Source: Candidatus Scalindua arabica (GTDB lineage Bacteria > Planctomycetota > Brocadiia > Brocadiales > Scalinduaceae). From it: a stretch of 64,000 bases of DNA. The notes under the pieces are model-generated. The model ran no database searches, was not told where the DNA came from, and saw only the letters and a list, made by a program, of their open reading frames with translations. This document shows, piece by piece, positions 381 through 22,954 of the stretch. Each line of letters starts with the position of its first letter. Positions within the stretch are counted from its first letter, which is position 1. The translations under genes were made by a program, and so were the position numbers. The DNA is taken from NCBI GenBank assembly GCA_018263435.1, contig JAANXD010000077.1, positions 1 to 64,000 of the forward strand. The letters are read 5' to 3'.

Positions 381-923
381 TTACTCATCAACAAACTTCA
401 ACGATGCCGAATTAATGCAATATCGAAGTCCAGTAGATGGCGGGCCATCGTTGAATACATGGCCGAGATGGGCATCGCATACATTACACATTACTTCTAT
501 CCTTATCATGCCTAGGCTTTTATCTGTAACCGTCTTAATGTTTTGCTCTGAAGCAACATCCCAAAAACTTGGCCAACCTGTACCAGATTCAAACTTTGCT
601 TTTGAATCGAACAGGTCAGAGCCACAGCCTACACATCGGTATATGCCTTCTCCTTTAAAGTTGTAGTATTCATTGTTAAAAGGAGGTTCTGTCCCTTTCT
701 TACGCATTACTCTGTACTGCTCCGGCGTAAGCAGCTGCTTCCATTCTTCGTTGGTTTTATCTACTTTTTCAGGTATGTTTGCTTCTTTCTGTTTATGTAG
801 TCTGGAATTCTCTTCCGGCAATTCAGCAGCCTTGATTTTATTAGAGATGGGTAAGAGGCATAACAATAAAGCCCACGAAACACACGAAAAGATATAAAAA
901 AAACTTTTTATGGTATTTTTCAC
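381..923 (-). CDS. msrB: peptide-methionine (R)-S-oxide reductase MsrB with N-terminal signal/TM segment
   Basis: [43 protein letters not shown] motifs. Confidence 0.96.
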
Positions 924-956
924 TTTGCTTTTGATTGCGGCTCGGCTGCACGGAAT

Positions 957-1910
957 TTAAAAAGCTTTTTCCCCAAAAGCGTCTTCAAACCGCTTGTTAA
1001 AAGATTCAGGTGAAAAGTTGAAATTCTGAGGACCGTAAACCTCAACGCAATAAGCAGCAGTGACTGAACCCATCCTTGCGGCGTGAACAATGTCACCGTC
1101 TGATAAAAAGAATCCCTTAATTAATCCCGCCCTGTAAGCATCGCCGGCTCCTGTAGGATCTTTTACAGAATCAACTTTGGCAGCAGGGATATCAATATTT
1201 TTAGTCTGACCATGCTCTTTCAGTGTTACTATCGAACCGTGTTCACTTTTGGTTTGTACCAGTATCTCAGTCTTCTCCAGAATATCGTCAATAGTCATGG
1301 AGGTTTTATCCTGGGTCAACTGCAATTCATAGTCATTACAGATGAAAACCTTTGAACCATCTATCATTTCTATTAACCGTTCTTTAGTCCAGGCTGGAAG
1401 GGATTGTCCCGGGTCAAAAATATAATCGATTTTTTTCTGTTTATAAATATTTGAGAAATTATACATATCATCCAGATTTCCCGGTGAGACTATGGCAACA
1501 GTGTCATCGTGTGCAACGGATTCAAAATTATAACTGGAACTGAACTTCATTGCGCCCGGATTAAATGCCGTTATCTGATTATCTGACTTATCTGTAGTTA
1601 TGTATGCACCCGCCGTAAGTTCTTCATCAATGATCTTAATATGTTCCGTGGTAATACTACTCTTCATCAACCAATCTTTATAAGAGTCAAAGTCACGCCC
1701 TGCAGTAGTTATTATGGTTGGACTTTCATCAAGCAGGGAAAGGGCATATGCAATATTACCGGCAGTACCTCCAAAGTTTTCTTTTAAACCATCTATCATA
1801 AAACATACATTGAGGACGTGTATCTTATCCGGAAGTATGTGATCAGAAAACTTTCCTGGAAAGTCCATAATCCTGTCATAAGCAAGTGATCCTGAAACAA
1901 GAATATTCAT
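957..1910 (-). CDS. PfkB-family carbohydrate/adenosine kinase
   Basis: N-terminal GG motif (NFGGTAGNIAYALSLL) and C-terminal DPTGAGDAYRAG. Confidence 0.93.
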   Translation of the reverse strand: MNILVSGSLAYDRIMDFPGKFSDHILPDKIHVLNVCFMIDGLKENFGGTAGNIAYALSLLDESPTIITTAGRDFDSYKDWLMKSSITTEHIKIIDEELTAGAYITTDKSDNQITAFNPGAMKFSSSYNFESVAHDDTVAIVSPGNLDDMYNFSNIYKQKKIDYIFDPGQSLPAWTKERLIEMIDGSKVFICNDYELQLTQDKTSMTIDDILEKTEILVQTKSEHGSIVTLKEHGQTKNIDIPAAKVDSVKDPTGAGDAYRAGLIKGFFLSDGDIVHAARMGSVTAAYCVEVYGPQNFNFSPESFNKRFEDAFGEKAF

Positions 1911-2251
1911 TTCATCTCCTCAGAAACTGTAAATCCTCAATAAGTTGTGAAGGTTAAAAATTAAGAATACATAAGACTTATTCAGATATAATAACTGATT
2001 GTTTTTTGAAAATCTAGGAATATTAATGCGAAGTGAAGATAATGGAAGGCAAAAGAATGTTCACCGCAGAGACACAAAGTACGCAAAGAAAAACAAAAGT
2101 ATGGTAAAAAGATAAAAGATAGACACTAATTTCCCCCGGACAAACAGCGCCGAGGGCGAGTAAAAGGCACGAATGGTGAGTAACAAATAACAGACACGAA
2201 GGAGGAAAACAGTTACACAAAAGTAGGTGGCTTTTCATCCCTACTCATCTT

Positions 2252-3577: not shown

Positions 3578-3659
3578 TATTTCCCCTCTTTTTTACTAAA
3601 CTAAAAATTCGAAAAACGAAGTACGAAATTCGAAACAAATTTAAAATTCAAATTTTCTT

Positions 3660-3704
3660 GTTCCCACGCTCTGCGTGGGAACAGCTACTAAGACGCTCCG
3701 CGTC
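3660..3704. repeat. REP-like double hairpin, left of RAYT gene
   Basis: gttcccacgctctgcgtgggaac (3660-3682) and gacgctccgcgtc (3692-3704). Confidence 0.85.
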
Positions 3705-4236
3705 ACCATTCCATACAAACCTCCAACAAACCTTCTTCTTCAGCATAGTTTCTCGCACTTGAATAACGCCAATGTATTGGATCATCCACATATCCTCTTT
3801 TTACAGGATTGTAATGCATATATTCCAGCTTTTGTATCATCATTTTCTCACCTTGAATCAACTCTGGATGACTACCTTCCTGCCAAAACTGATATGTTCT
3901 ATCCTTTTTGTGTTTAAGTTTGTAAAACTGAAATTGTTTGAGTGTTGCATTTATTTTGTTTTCTTTTAAATAATCAATAATCTTTCTTGCCGTAAATGAT
4001 TTAAAACGTCCTATTTCTAAAGCTAAGTCACTGCCTGAAGCTATAAGATGAAGATGATTTTCCATGATAACATAGCCGTAAAGTTTCAAATGTTTTTGTA
4101 CTTGTAAATGATGCAAAGAATCTAAAACAATCTGTACAATGTCTCTGTTTGTAAAAACTGAGATCCAGTTGACTACCGTACAAGTAAAAAAATGAGGGCA
4201 TTCATCTTCTATAACTTTGTAACGGCTTCTTCCCAT
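3703..4236 (-). mobile_element. REP-associated tyrosine transposase (RAYT, Y1/IS200-like)
   Basis: HUH motif ENHLHLIASG, YMHYNPVKRGYVDDPIHWRYSSARNY; flanking inverted REP hairpins. Confidence 0.93.
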
Positions 4237-4255
4237 TGCATAAGCTTTTAATTAT

Positions 4256-4299
4256 GACGCAGAGCGTCGAAGACTGCATTCCCACGTAGAACGTGGGAA
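4256..4299. repeat. REP-like double hairpin, right of RAYT gene (inverted relative to left)
   Basis: gacgcagagcgtc (4256-4268) and ttcccacgtagaacgtgggaa (4279-4299). Confidence 0.85.
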
Positions 4300-4319
4300 C
4301 AAGTTAAAAGAATTATTTA

Positions 4320-5672: not shown

Positions 5673-5727
5673 TACTTTTTACATACCTCATAAAAGTAGC
5701 ATAGCCACGGCAAAGCAGATCCATAAA

Positions 5728-5880
5728 ATTTGAAATCTGAAGCACGAAATCCGAAACAAATTCGAATAACTCAAATTATAATTTTCCAAACCACTGAAAC
5801 AAACAATGATTCAGGTTGTCTTGGGTTTTTAGAATTCGAATTTCGACATTGTTTCGTGCTTTGAAATTCGATATTTGGGC
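5728..5880. repeat. MITE-like dispersed repeat with related inverted arms (gaagcacgaaatccgaaacaaattcgaa family)
   Basis: left arm gaaatctgaagcacgaaatccgaaacaaattcgaa; right arm, reverse complement, gaatttcaaagcacgaaacaatgtcgaaattcgaatt. Confidence 0.65.
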
Positions 5881-13365: not shown

Positions 13366-15246
13366 TCACTTCCAGTAACTATCCCACCGCTCATCTACTT
13401 TTTTAACTATTTCTTCTGACATTACGAGTGGCGCGGGGTAGCCCTTCTTCCATGTAGCATCAATACCCATCTTACCTTTGAAGAGAGGGTTTATGCCTAC
13501 CAGCTTCTCCTCGGCAAACATAATGTCACGTTCCGCATCAAATCTGGTGAAAATACCCCAGATAGTTTGTTCCTCATTGCGAATGTCAACATCAGGACTC
13601 ACAACCGCAATAATCTTTGGACCTACCAGCTCCCTGGATTTTGTTAACTTATTAACCACATCCCTCCCATCACCTTGAACCGTAACTACCAATAGCGTTT
13701 CGCCCAGGAGATTCCAGTCTGATACTCGATTATCTATTGTCTTTATCAAGCTGCCTATTTGAGATTTCGGATTTCGGATTTCGGATTTCGGATTCTTTGA
13801 TTTTGTGGCATCCATAATCATCTTGCTTCCCAGGTTCATCTTATAACTGGTAAAATCAAGTGTATCCAACGGGACTTTTGGAATCATGATAAAATCGTAT
13901 GTGGGATCAAAGTTTTCGCGTATCGCTGTCAGGACAGCATTGAAGTCTCTAGGGTTGACGTCTTCTGAAACTGTTACAATACATTTTGTTAACGAAAGCT
14001 GGCCTTCCCCCATAATAGAAAGGGCAGTCTTCATCGCCTCTTTCTGATAGCGTTCTTCTACAGAGACCACCAGCAGGTTATGGAACCCGGCTTCGTAATA
14101 AGCCCAGAGATTACAGATCTCCGGATGAATCAGGCGAATAAGCGGGCCCAGGACCTGTTGCGTTGCATTCCCCAGATATTTGTCCTCCATAGGGGGGAGG
14201 CCTACTACTGTTGTGGGATAGATGGCATTTTTTCTATGTGTGACTTTGCTTATGTGAAAAACAGGGAATTTTGAGGCGTGAGAATAATGCCCGAAATGGT
14301 CACCAAATGGACCCTCCATGCGTAACTCTGTCAGATGAACGGTTCCTTCAAGTATAAACTCTGCATCCGCCGGTACCTTGATGGACACACTCTTGCCCTT
14401 CACCATTCTTGTCCTTCTGCTGCGGAGAAAACCGCTGAACATAACCTCGTCTATCCCTTCCGGTAATGCGGCAACTGTAGCCAGCAGTAAAGCAGGATCT
14501 GTTCCCAATGCTACAGCAATCTCAAACTCCCTGCCCAGCTTCCTGGCCTGATAGTAATGGAACCCGCCGCCCTTTTGTATCTGCCAGTGCATGCCTGTTG
14601 TCTGTCCGTCGAAGATCTGCATACGATACATTCCCACGTTCCGTTTCCCATCGTGCGGGTCGTAGGTAAAAACCTGCGGCAGGGTAATAAAAGGGCCGCC
14701 ATCCTCCGGCCAGGAGGTTATGATCGGAATATCATTTAAATCCGGATTAATCACCACTTCCTGTGAAGTAGGGCTGCATGTCTTCCGTGGAAGGGTGCTG
14801 AAAATCCGTTTGGTTATTCCGGCGTGTTTGAAAAACACCTTTGGTCCTGGAGGCATGGCATCTTCCATAAACGTAATCAACTCTTCGCCAAGCCGGTCCG
14901 GATGTTTTCCCAGAGCCAGTTCAATCCGTTTATCACTGGCAAGGACGTTCATAGCCAGCGGGAATTTCGCACCCTTTACATTTTCAAAAAGTAAGGCGGG
15001 CATCCCTTCCTTTAAGGCACGGATTGAGATTTCAGTAACCTCTAACCTGGCATCCACCTCGGTCTTGATGCGTATCAGCTCACCGTTTGAGTCCAGATAT
15101 TTGATAAAGTCCTGTAGCGAATATATTTTCAATTTGTATAAATATTCCTGAGTTAAATTTATTAAATAAACAGGACAATATACTAAAACCGATTTGTTTT
15201 TTGGTTTTCTCAAAACCAAATCTTGGTTGCAGTTATCCCCGGACAA
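13366..15246 (-). CDS. ubiD: UbiD-family (de)carboxylase (true start probably near 15130)
   Basis: UbiD-family pattern (PALLFENVKG, MQIFDGQTTGMHWQIQKGGGFHY, EGPFGDHFGHYS, PTTVVGLPPMEDKYLGNAT); extra N-terminal residues translate the upstream hairpin region. Confidence 0.93.
   Translation of the reverse strand: MSGDNCNQDLVLRKPKNKSVLVYCPVYLINLTQEYLYKLKIYSLQDFIKYLDSNGELIRIKTEVDARLEVTEISIRALKEGMPALLFENVKGAKFPLAMNVLASDKRIELALGKHPDRLGEELITFMEDAMPPGPKVFFKHAGITKRIFSTLPRKTCSPTSQEVVINPDLNDIPIITSWPEDGGPFITLPQVFTYDPHDGKRNVGMYRMQIFDGQTTGMHWQIQKGGGFHYYQARKLGREFEIAVALGTDPALLLATVAALPEGIDEVMFSGFLRSRRTRMVKGKSVSIKVPADAEFILEGTVHLTELRMEGPFGDHFGHYSHASKFPVFHISKVTHRKNAIYPTTVVGLPPMEDKYLGNATQQVLGPLIRLIHPEICNLWAYYEAGFHNLLVVSVEERYQKEAMKTALSIMGEGQLSLTKCIVTVSEDVNPRDFNAVLTAIRENFDPTYDFIMIPKVPLDTLDFTSYKMNLGSKMIMDATKSKNPKSEIRNPKSQIGSLIKTIDNRVSDWNLLGETLLVVTVQGDGRDVVNKLTKSRELVGPKIIAVVSPDVDIRNEEQTIWGIFTRFDAERDIMFAEEKLVGINPLFKGKMGIDATWKKGYPAPLVMSEEIVKKVDERWDSYWK
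13758..13798. repeat. dispersed repeat (atttcgg)n inside ubiD, translated NPKSEIRNPKSQI
   Basis: gagatttcggatttcggatttcggatttcggattc. Confidence 0.85.
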
Positions 15247-20047: not shown

Positions 20048-21382
20048 TCAATGAAGTTTAATAAGTCCTGTTATTATGTCCCCTAAACCGGGCTTGCTTA
20101 GTTCCTGAAGTTCATATTTTGTCCTGACAATAGGTTTGTTTATCTTGATTATCTTGCCTAAATCTATTGGTGTGCCGATGATGACGGTATCACAATCTGT
20201 TCGATTAATGGTTTTCTCAAGTTCGAGGATTTGTTTCCTGTCATAACCCATGGCGGGGAGAAGATTATCAATACTGGAGTACTTTTTGAATGTCTCTTTT
20301 ATACTCCCAACGGCAAAAGGCCTTGGATCAACAAGTATGGATGAACCATACTTCCTGGCTGCCATGACGGCAGCGCCATAAGTCATACCTCCATGAGTTA
20401 CTGTCGGTCCGTCTTCCACGGCAAGAACTCTGCGGTCTTTTATTCTTTCCAGATTCTCAACCGTAATATGCAGAGACGCATCAATTACAGAAGCCTTTGG
20501 ATTTGTTTTCTTAATATTATCTTTAACCTTGATTATGTTCTCAGGATCAGCAAATTCTTCTTTGCTTATAATTACTATATCCGCGAGTATCAGGTTGGTT
20601 TCGCCGGGATAGAACGTTACTTCATGTCCCGGCCTATGGGGGTCTACAAGAGTTATATGGATGTCAGGTTTATAAAAGGGTAAATCATTGTTGCCTCCAT
20701 CCCATATAATAATGTCGGCTTCGCCTTCTGCCTTTCTTAATATGTCTTCGTAATCAACACCTGCATAGACAATAGTTCCCTGTTCAATATGAGGTTCATA
20801 TTCCTCCATTTCCTCAATAGTACAGTCGTGCAGGATAAGGTCTTCATATGTTTCAAAGCGTTGTACTTTCTGCTTTACCAGGTCTCCATAAGGCATTGGA
20901 TGGCGGACAGCTACGACTTTCTTTCCTGCTTCTTTTAGTATCTGGCATATCCTTCTTGTGGCAGCGCTCTTTCCACATCCGGTCCTGACCGCACAGACAG
21001 CAATGACCGGTACCTTGCTCTTGAGCATCGTTTGCTCAGCTCCTAGGATAATAAGATTGGCACCAGCCGCCTGAACCTCACTGGCCTTATGCATAACGTA
21101 TTCGTGGGACACATCGCTATAGGAAAAAACCACTTCATCAATCCTGTGGTCCTTGATAAGTCCCGTTAGCTCTTTTTCATCGTAAATGGGAATACCGTCA
21201 GGATATAATCTACCGGCAAGCTCAGATGGATATTTTCTGTCAGCAATGTTCGGGATTTGAGTTGCTGTGAAAGCTACAACTTCATAGTCTTCGTTATTCT
21301 TATAGAAGACATTGAAGTTATGGAAGTCTCTCCCTGCTGCCCCCATTATTATGGTTTTTATCTTTTTCATATTTATTTCCAT
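20048..21382 (-). CDS. COG2403-type GTPase / cyclic 2,3-diphosphoglycerate synthetase-like protein
   Basis: MGAAGRDFHNFN, AVCAVRTGCGKSAATRRI P-loop, VDPHRPGHE..YPGE, EDGPTVTHGGM. Confidence 0.85.
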   Translation of the reverse strand: MEINMKKIKTIIMGAAGRDFHNFNVFYKNNEDYEVVAFTATQIPNIADRKYPSELAGRLYPDGIPIYDEKELTGLIKDHRIDEVVFSYSDVSHEYVMHKASEVQAAGANLIILGAEQTMLKSKVPVIAVCAVRTGCGKSAATRRICQILKEAGKKVVAVRHPMPYGDLVKQKVQRFETYEDLILHDCTIEEMEEYEPHIEQGTIVYAGVDYEDILRKAEGEADIIIWDGGNNDLPFYKPDIHITLVDPHRPGHEVTFYPGETNLILADIVIISKEEFADPENIIKVKDNIKKTNPKASVIDASLHITVENLERIKDRRVLAVEDGPTVTHGGMTYGAAVMAARKYGSSILVDPRPFAVGSIKETFKKYSSIDNLLPAMGYDRKQILELEKTINRTDCDTVIIGTPIDLGKIIKINKPIVRTKYELQELSKPGLGDIITGLIKLH

Positions 21383-21514: not shown

Positions 21515-22954
21515 TTGGGAATACAATCAGCCTTTGCAAAGGAAAGTTCCTACCTTACATATGTTTCTTTCAACATAAAAATATATAGTGGTATAATGTT
21601 AAGGTTATCCGTACTATGTCTACTGGTTATTTCACACTTGCTTATTTATATGCATACTTCAACTGCAGAACAAATAAAATTTGATATTAAGGAACACCGT
21701 CTGGAAAATGGTTTGAGGCTGCTTATACATCAGGACCATTCATCGCCCATTATAAGTTTCCAGGTATGGTATAACGTGGGTTCCATAAACGAGAGACCAG
21801 GTATAACCGGTATTTCACACCTGTTTGAACACATGATGTTCAAGGGATCAAAGAATGTTGATTCGGAAGAGCATAGCCGTATTATTCAACGGAATGGTGG
21901 TACGGATAATGCCTTTACCACTGAGGATATGACCGCTTATTTTGAAAATCTTCCCAGTTCCCAGCTTGAATTAGCAGTAAAACTGGAGGCAGACAGGATG
22001 GCTCACCTTCGGCTTACGGCTGAGACCCTGGCGTCTGAAAGACAGGTGGTAAAGGAGGAGAGGCGCATGCGGGTAGATAATTCACTTTTTGGTAAACTGA
22101 ATGAGGGCCTTTACTCAACTACATTTACCAAACACCCGTATCGATGGCCAGTAATAGGGTGGATGTCCGATATAGATGCCATAACTCTGGATGACTGCAA
22201 GGCTTTTTACAGTACGCACTATGCACCAAATAATGCTACCGTCATAATACTTGGAGACATAGATTTTGATAAAACCATATCCCTGGTGGAGAAGTATTTT
22301 GGACATATACCTTCTGCAGAGCGTCCGGAAGAGTTGATCCAAATGGAGGACCCACAAAGTCAGGAAAGGCATAAAGACCTTTATGTTGATACCCAGTTTC
22401 CCTGGCTTGCTGTTGCTTATCACATACCGGAGGCAGCCCATGATGACATTCCGGTATTAGAACTTATTGAGAATATACTTACGGAAGGACGCAGTTCCAG
22501 ACTCTACAGGAAGATCATATATGAAGATCAGTCTGCCCTTTCTGTCTTCGCATCTGTTGATAAGTACAAAGACCCGGGGTTATTTGTCATTACGGTCAGA
22601 AGTATAAAACAAGGGCATACTCCTGAAGAAGTTGCATCCGTGATTAATGAAAGTCTGGAACAATTCAAGACTGAAAAAGTAACGGACCGTGAACTTGAGA
22701 AGGCAAGAAATAAAATGGAAACAAACCTGATCTTTGGTCTCCAGACCAACTTTGTCAGAGGTATGCGGTTAGGGTTCAGTATGGCAAGGACTGGTGACCC
22801 TCTGGGGTTTTTTAAGAATCTGGAAAAGTACAGACATACAACTGCAGAAGAAATACAAAAGGTAGCAAGGAAATATTTTACACATGAAAATCGAACTATA
22901 GTGAGGTTGCTTCCTAAAGAGGAGAAGTCAGAAACAGTTGAGAGTAGTCTGTAG
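21515..22954 (+). CDS. M16-family zinc peptidase (catalytic type; likely start at 21596)
   Basis: HXXEH motif GISHLFEHMMFKGS; signal peptide from MLRLSVLCLL. Confidence 0.95.
   Translation: MGIQSAFAKESSYLTYVSFNIKIYSGIMLRLSVLCLLVISHLLIYMHTSTAEQIKFDIKEHRLENGLRLLIHQDHSSPIISFQVWYNVGSINERPGITGISHLFEHMMFKGSKNVDSEEHSRIIQRNGGTDNAFTTEDMTAYFENLPSSQLELAVKLEADRMAHLRLTAETLASERQVVKEERRMRVDNSLFGKLNEGLYSTTFTKHPYRWPVIGWMSDIDAITLDDCKAFYSTHYAPNNATVIILGDIDFDKTISLVEKYFGHIPSAERPEELIQMEDPQSQERHKDLYVDTQFPWLAVAYHIPEAAHDDIPVLELIENILTEGRSSRLYRKIIYEDQSALSVFASVDKYKDPGLFVITVRSIKQGHTPEEVASVINESLEQFKTEKVTDRELEKARNKMETNLIFGLQTNFVRGMRLGFSMARTGDPLGFFKNLEKYRHTTAEEIQKVARKYFTHENRTIVRLLPKEEKSETVESSL

Follow-up and report, generated by a model that had tools for sequence, protein, structure and literature searches.

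A dispersed family of short repeats built from the heptamer AATCCGA, often arranged as two inverted, hairpin-capable arms, quite probably occupies loops and linkers of conserved proteins in frame in Candidatus Scalindua arabica and its relatives, with the copy in ubiD being single-armed. Copies are scattered over this genome, at least five of its genes read one in frame, and close relatives lack them at the corresponding sites. RecJ and HypD differ in length by exactly three units (21 nt), which preserves the reading frame.

The array in the ubiD linker

The window analyzed here, a stretch of 64,000 nucleotides, contains a gene for a UbiD-family menaquinone decarboxylase of the futalosine-pathway type (13369-15132 (-), TTG start, stop codon 13366-13368), whose frame is uninterrupted over 588 aa. 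The product scores 531 bits against TIGR03701, above the curated cutoff of 495.9, contains the Pfam domains UbiD_N, UbiD and UbiD_C, and has E. coli UbiD as its best PDB match, both by sequence and by fold. Its closest named relatives are from Candidatus Scalindua and other anammox Brocadiales. Judged by its sequence, it is a menaquinone decarboxylase of the SCO4490 type within the UbiD family, with a predicted activity (prFMN, futalosine pathway). The C-terminal extra domain (13369-13734 (-)) is a partial second copy of UbiD_C, recognized by PF20696 at E=2.6e-10 when the piece is taken alone, and as the second of two UbiD_C stretches on the full-length protein (Pfam). Menaquinone decarboxylases of Brocadiales, and of several phyla besides, share such a partial second copy after the linker, and in one congener (G009, contig C14) the last 24 residues of ubiD recur downstream of the gene as two further short copies, at 21248-21319 and 22202-22273.

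The UbiD fold is joined to the C-terminal UbiD_C copy by a hypervariable linker (13735-13803 (-), residues 444-466), as placed by family alignments and AlphaFold2. Within this linker, TRF finds a repeat of period 7 at 13763-13794, with 4.6 copies, a 100% match and a score of 64, and the heptad scan widens the (AATCCGA)n array to 13760-13794 (-), that is, about 4.6 perfect copies and a degenerate one. The initial annotation had proposed an in-frame repeat peptide in ubiD, and this is borne out, with the array encoding NPKSEIRNPKSQI (13756-13794 (-), residues 447-459 by the coordinate map) in the open frame. The window holds four 18-mer matches at up to 3 mismatches against 0.17 expected, and 0 of 100 shuffles reach four; the array is far from chance. 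It is the sole heptad array in the window at the stringency of the heptad scan, with none for the reversed control, and it has neither an inverted arm nor a hairpin (DNA folding, z=+2.2).

The linker was compared across the UbiD orthologues of 27 relatives in Brocadiales and of about 45 genomes from other phyla, and the family alignments show its sequence to be hypervariable across phyla and unconserved even inside the genus. The AlphaFold2 model has a mean pLDDT of 89 overall, and the linker blocks reach 75 and 69 versus 93-96 just after the linker; on this model, the linker would be a flexible connection outside the conserved core. The peptide is limited to a few close relatives, as had been expected, and is not conserved in UbiD of unrelated taxa, the linkers of Brocadiaceae, Ignavibacteria, Bacteroidota, KSB1 and Chloroflexota all being different.

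The further claim that a dispersed DNA repeat had added a peptide to the enzyme survives in part. A dispersed repeat does encode the peptide, but the linker (GSK...NRV) measures 36 aa here against 35-36 aa in congeners that lack the array, and the full protein comes to 587-588 aa with or without it, which rules out the simple reading of an addition. Given this same length in repeat-less congeners, the array rewrote an existing linker and added no loop; it replaced or overgrew the bulk of an older linker of matching length, with 0-1 aa gained on balance. The congener G002 has a longer linker of 46 aa with two inverted heptad arms (FGLQIADCRVKNPKSEIRNPKSE), and shorter heptad-like stretches stand in the linkers of G013 (KSEIRNQKSE) and G004 (KNPKSD). 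The ubiD genes of S. rubra (L081) and G001 (L036) have different GC-rich, partly palindromic linker inserts (SAKADGRNPWPRPQGGSHQGR and LPDPSPPECSRAG, respectively), and other repeat families thus seem to use the same site. The ubiD linker is thus a site that takes up repeat DNA repeatedly.

An artefact of assembly or binning is scarcely credible, even though the genome is metagenome-assembled and in 102 contigs: the array, at about 35 nt, fits within a single read, the independently assembled G002 has an array in the same linker, and similar arrays occur in genomes of one or few contigs (G030, G039). An ancient insertion, in which the array entered the linker in an ancestor of the Scalinduaceae, was degraded by most lineages and was kept by the genome of the window (G000) and G002, is somewhat unlikely. 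It fits the KSEI-like remnants in most family members, the stretches in G013 and G004 among them, and one HypD insert kept through a clade of seven genomes. However, the DNA of both arrays, in G000 and in G002, is pure against a divergence of about 9% in the remainder of the gene, and pure retention would need homogenisation; nor does the ubiD gene tree resolve G000 with G002.

The same heptamer in other proteins

The search for the repeat peptide in other proteins, which the initial annotation had called for, finds it in unrelated proteins of this genome and of Brocadiales. Arrays internal to long ORFs of the genome lie in UbiD, RecJ, an ammonium-transporter/histidine-kinase fusion (Amt-HK), a second histidine kinase, and a radical-SAM/methyltransferase protein, and Pfam domains flank or span the array in these proteins. 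Unlike the ubiD case, those in RecJ, Amt-HK and HypD are real additions, and the ubiD of G002 is a true longer form.

RecJ, which carries the heptamer as YGNPKSEIRNPKSKISYYIPD, has exactly +21 nt (7 aa) inside its DHH domain against 14 family relatives, and the RecJ of G016 has an insert of its own at the same place. The NADLKSEIRNPKSEIYELIVSDNG array of Amt-HK belongs to an insert of +33 aa in the HATPase hairpin beside SDNG, absent in eight congeners, and the second histidine kinase has its array in the same loop. The 33-aa insert is composite, holding another dispersed palindrome, CCGACTGAGTCG, which recurs at other loci, as well as a 23-nt piece with no second copy in five genomes; no target-site duplication was seen by eye in this comparison. 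Among Brocadiales, seven genomes have in HypD either an inverted heptad pair or a shorter version of one, and 13 have neither; the copy of G043 is exactly 21 nt shorter. FolC-like and PurL proteins elsewhere in the order carry the heptamer in other loops, and the opposite-strand peptide FRISDFGFRI is also found in repeat-bearing proteins.

Two further observations belong beside these proteins. At L174 (G009, 448-2217 (-)), an O-antigen-ligase-like protein bears a heavy in-frame repeat load: peptides derived from the heptads (SAIRNPQSEIDN..., STINLQSENRNLQSTINNPPSQ, SAIRNPKSEI) are numerous along a stretch of about 150 residues. Another dispersed repeat family lies ahead of HypD in G032, where the upstream sequence (translated SPPIPLVKGGKIPSPFLGKG) has dozens of short matches in the genomes G043, G054, G055 and others.

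At identical residues of HypD, the same codon is used in 95% of cases within the insert, versus a mean of 53% and a maximum of 69% over 301 other windows of the same gene. With synonymous codons conserved to this degree, the DNA itself must be conserved or homogenised. Selection on the protein would not explain this, but slippage with hairpin-templated correction, or selection on the hairpin, could. It is accordingly very improbable that the peptide was selected for a function, such as that of a docking or assembly linker, with the DNA resemblance as a by-product. The kept frame and the position of the linker beside the duplicated domain would suit such a role, but the linker is unconserved within the genus, the same peptide recurs in RecJ, the kinases and HypD together with its opposite-strand counterpart, and protein-level selection leaves the HypD codons unexplained. 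The repeat peptide is most likely a neutral linker filler for the enzyme.

Dispersal, hairpins and the origin of the arrays

The census of the genome rests on pattern searches, which give 24 array sites at up to 2 mismatches, five of them in long ORFs. Pure arrays (0-1 mismatch) stand in ORFs in 5 of 9 cases versus 0 of 15 for degenerate ones (p=0.003). Across Brocadiales, 22 of 31 arrays (71%) lie well inside ORFs against 72% of random positions, a count that is indicative, as the 31 loci include overlapping or orthologous cases. A preference of the arrays for genes is thus unsupported, and there is likewise no sign in these 31 of the avoidance of coding regions that, on a view reported in PMC4679880, repeat units with a length not divisible by 3 should show. 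Three 7-nt units make 21 nt and give NPKSEIR in any frame and FGFRISD on the other strand, both stop-free. The AATCCGA repeat is open in all six frames, but so are half of all heptamers (50%); a special role for this openness was rejected, and the property is permissive only.

Inverted arms within 90 bp accompany 20 of 47 arrays, and such pairs fold strongly as single-stranded DNA, with z=-9.4 for the HypD insert and z=-4.3 for the G002 ubiD linker. At up to 1 mismatch, the 21-mer occurs in 24 of 59 Brocadiales genomes (reversed control, one genome). The exact 21-mer is present in 21 of 294 sampled Planctomycetota (reversed control 1), in 39 of 397 genomes of another planctomycete class (control 1), and also in 29 stretches of viral contigs. 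A broader conjecture, which we hold to be rather unlikely, is that (AATCCGA)n is a trans-lineage, self-homogenising coding element, whose hairpin-capable arrays would pass from genome to genome and from gene to gene in Planctomycetota and their viruses, enter loops in frame, stay uniform in DNA, and serve as a general source of new protein loops.

The window also carries two intergenic heptad elements. One, with an AGTACGA core (3604-3641 (+)), is 84% identical to 5725-5762 and was also traced by a pattern search of the genome; the other has an AGCACGA core and an inverted partner arm at 5852-5876 (5725-5876, no strand assigned). These had been taken for the same type as the ubiD array. They are real, heptad-built (AATTYGA-AA..YGA-AGYACGA-AATYCGA-AACAAAT) and have the AATCCGA unit in common with it, but are kin only, since they form a distinct element with a GAAGCACGAAATYCGAAACAAAT core (GAAGCACGAAAT core). 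None of its 21 genome sites lies inside a long ORF, and its identity with the coding element was rejected. Adjoining one heptad element, a 177-aa IS200-like ORF (3703-4236 (-); Y1_Tnp, weak, E=0.004, below the Pfam cutoff) is flanked by TTCCCACGC..GCGTGGGAA palindromes, with inverted repeat arms at 3657-3710 and 4250-4303. The ORF and palindromes together look like a REP-associated tyrosine transposase; a link of this gene to the heptads was considered, and nothing ties them.

In the explanation that we favor, that of a dispersed family settling in loops, copies would enter or grow at tolerant loops through slippage or through copying from other arrays, selection would remove frame-breaking states, and slippage together with hairpin-templated correction would keep the arrays homogeneous at the DNA level. 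Counting against it, no mobilising enzyme, target-site duplication or de novo event emerged, the window's own array lacks arm and hairpin, and KSEI-like sequence stands at the same spot in the UbiD and RecJ of relatives, which fits local seed expansion, or an older array in decay, no less than a fresh insertion. Given such seeds in relatives, the arrays may have been imported from others or have grown from a seed already in place. Local microsatellite expansion only, with a short heptad-like linker seed growing by polymerase slippage and nothing imported from elsewhere in the genome, is an explanation to which we give appreciable but less than even credence. In congeners, the corresponding place holds AAATCTGAAATA (KSEI) in UbiD and AATCAGAAATC (NQKS) in RecJ, and both RecJ and HypD vary in 21-nt steps, as such growth would have it. 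However, it is the same heptamer, and not a gene-specific one, that expanded in unrelated genes and intergenic sites, and neither the inverted pairs nor the composite Amt-HK insert with its other palindrome are simple slippage products.

Relation to known repeat systems

Rickettsia palindromic elements (RPE; Ogata et al. 2000 and 2002, reviewed in PMC10969869) are defined families of about 150 bp. As in the present case, they are dispersed palindromic repeats that lie between genes and in frame inside unrelated metabolic genes, and are tolerated by the proteins (PMC10969869). The two resemble each other in intergenic and coding dispersal within one genome (here 5 of the 24 sites in long ORFs) and in their in-frame presence in unrelated conserved genes with absence from the orthologues of relatives (RecJ, Amt-HK, HypD). 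A hairpin-forming palindrome of defined length (~150 bp) with a family consensus is not what was found here, as the ubiD copy is hairpin-less, arms are present in fewer than half of the arrays (20/47), and lengths vary. The unit here is a 7-mer in short variable arrays with optional arms and Planctomycetota as hosts, and the likeness drawn is one of description.

Heptanucleotide repeats are known as TAACTGA in Beggiatoaceae, Cyanobacteria and Bacteroidetes (PMC4679880), and as GGGAATC and GGGGA(C/T)T in Xanthomonas and Nostoc (PMC4692102). The present family has in common with them the 7-nt period, the patchy occurrence of one heptamer over distant lineages, and the dispersal in the genome (PMC4679880, PMC4692102); the ubiD array is also a perfect tandem 7-mer by TRF, with one heptamer favored and a reversed control near zero. 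Those repeats are mainly intergenic and have been proposed to be regulatory or G4-forming, whereas here pure, hairpin-capable arrays stand in conserved ORFs. The defining features of neither RPE nor bacterial heptanucleotide repeats are therefore fully present.

Palindromic amphipathic repeat coding elements (PARCEL, PMC2996958) likewise encode protein, show dyad symmetry, are patchily distributed and probably move between lineages, but they have a 25-residue motif, long tandem tracts, repeat domains and many membrane-targeted proteins, in contrast to the 1-5 heptads in core-enzyme loops seen here. Prokaryotic MITEs and enterobacterial RU elements with intragenic copies resemble the family as short inverted repeats, some fused in frame to genes (PMC10969869, PMC2759123); some copies here have inverted arms, and no terminal inverted repeats with target-site duplication and no parent transposase were identified. 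A search of open-licence papers gave no mention of NPKSEIR and no account of repeats of this kind in anammox bacteria.

Taken alone, the ubiD case is modest, and the interest lies in the wider coding-repeat system. It is mainly from Rickettsia that selfish repeats invading ordinary enzymes in frame are well described; here a much smaller and different unit does so in Planctomycetota, free-living anammox bacteria among them, with recJ, hypD, folC and purL as examples of the core genes concerned. The many natural empty-site comparisons make it measurable how repeat DNA becomes protein, why one heptamer recurs in distant lineages, and what holds its codons constant. Heptad-derived loops of this kind can also mislead alignments and phylogenies.
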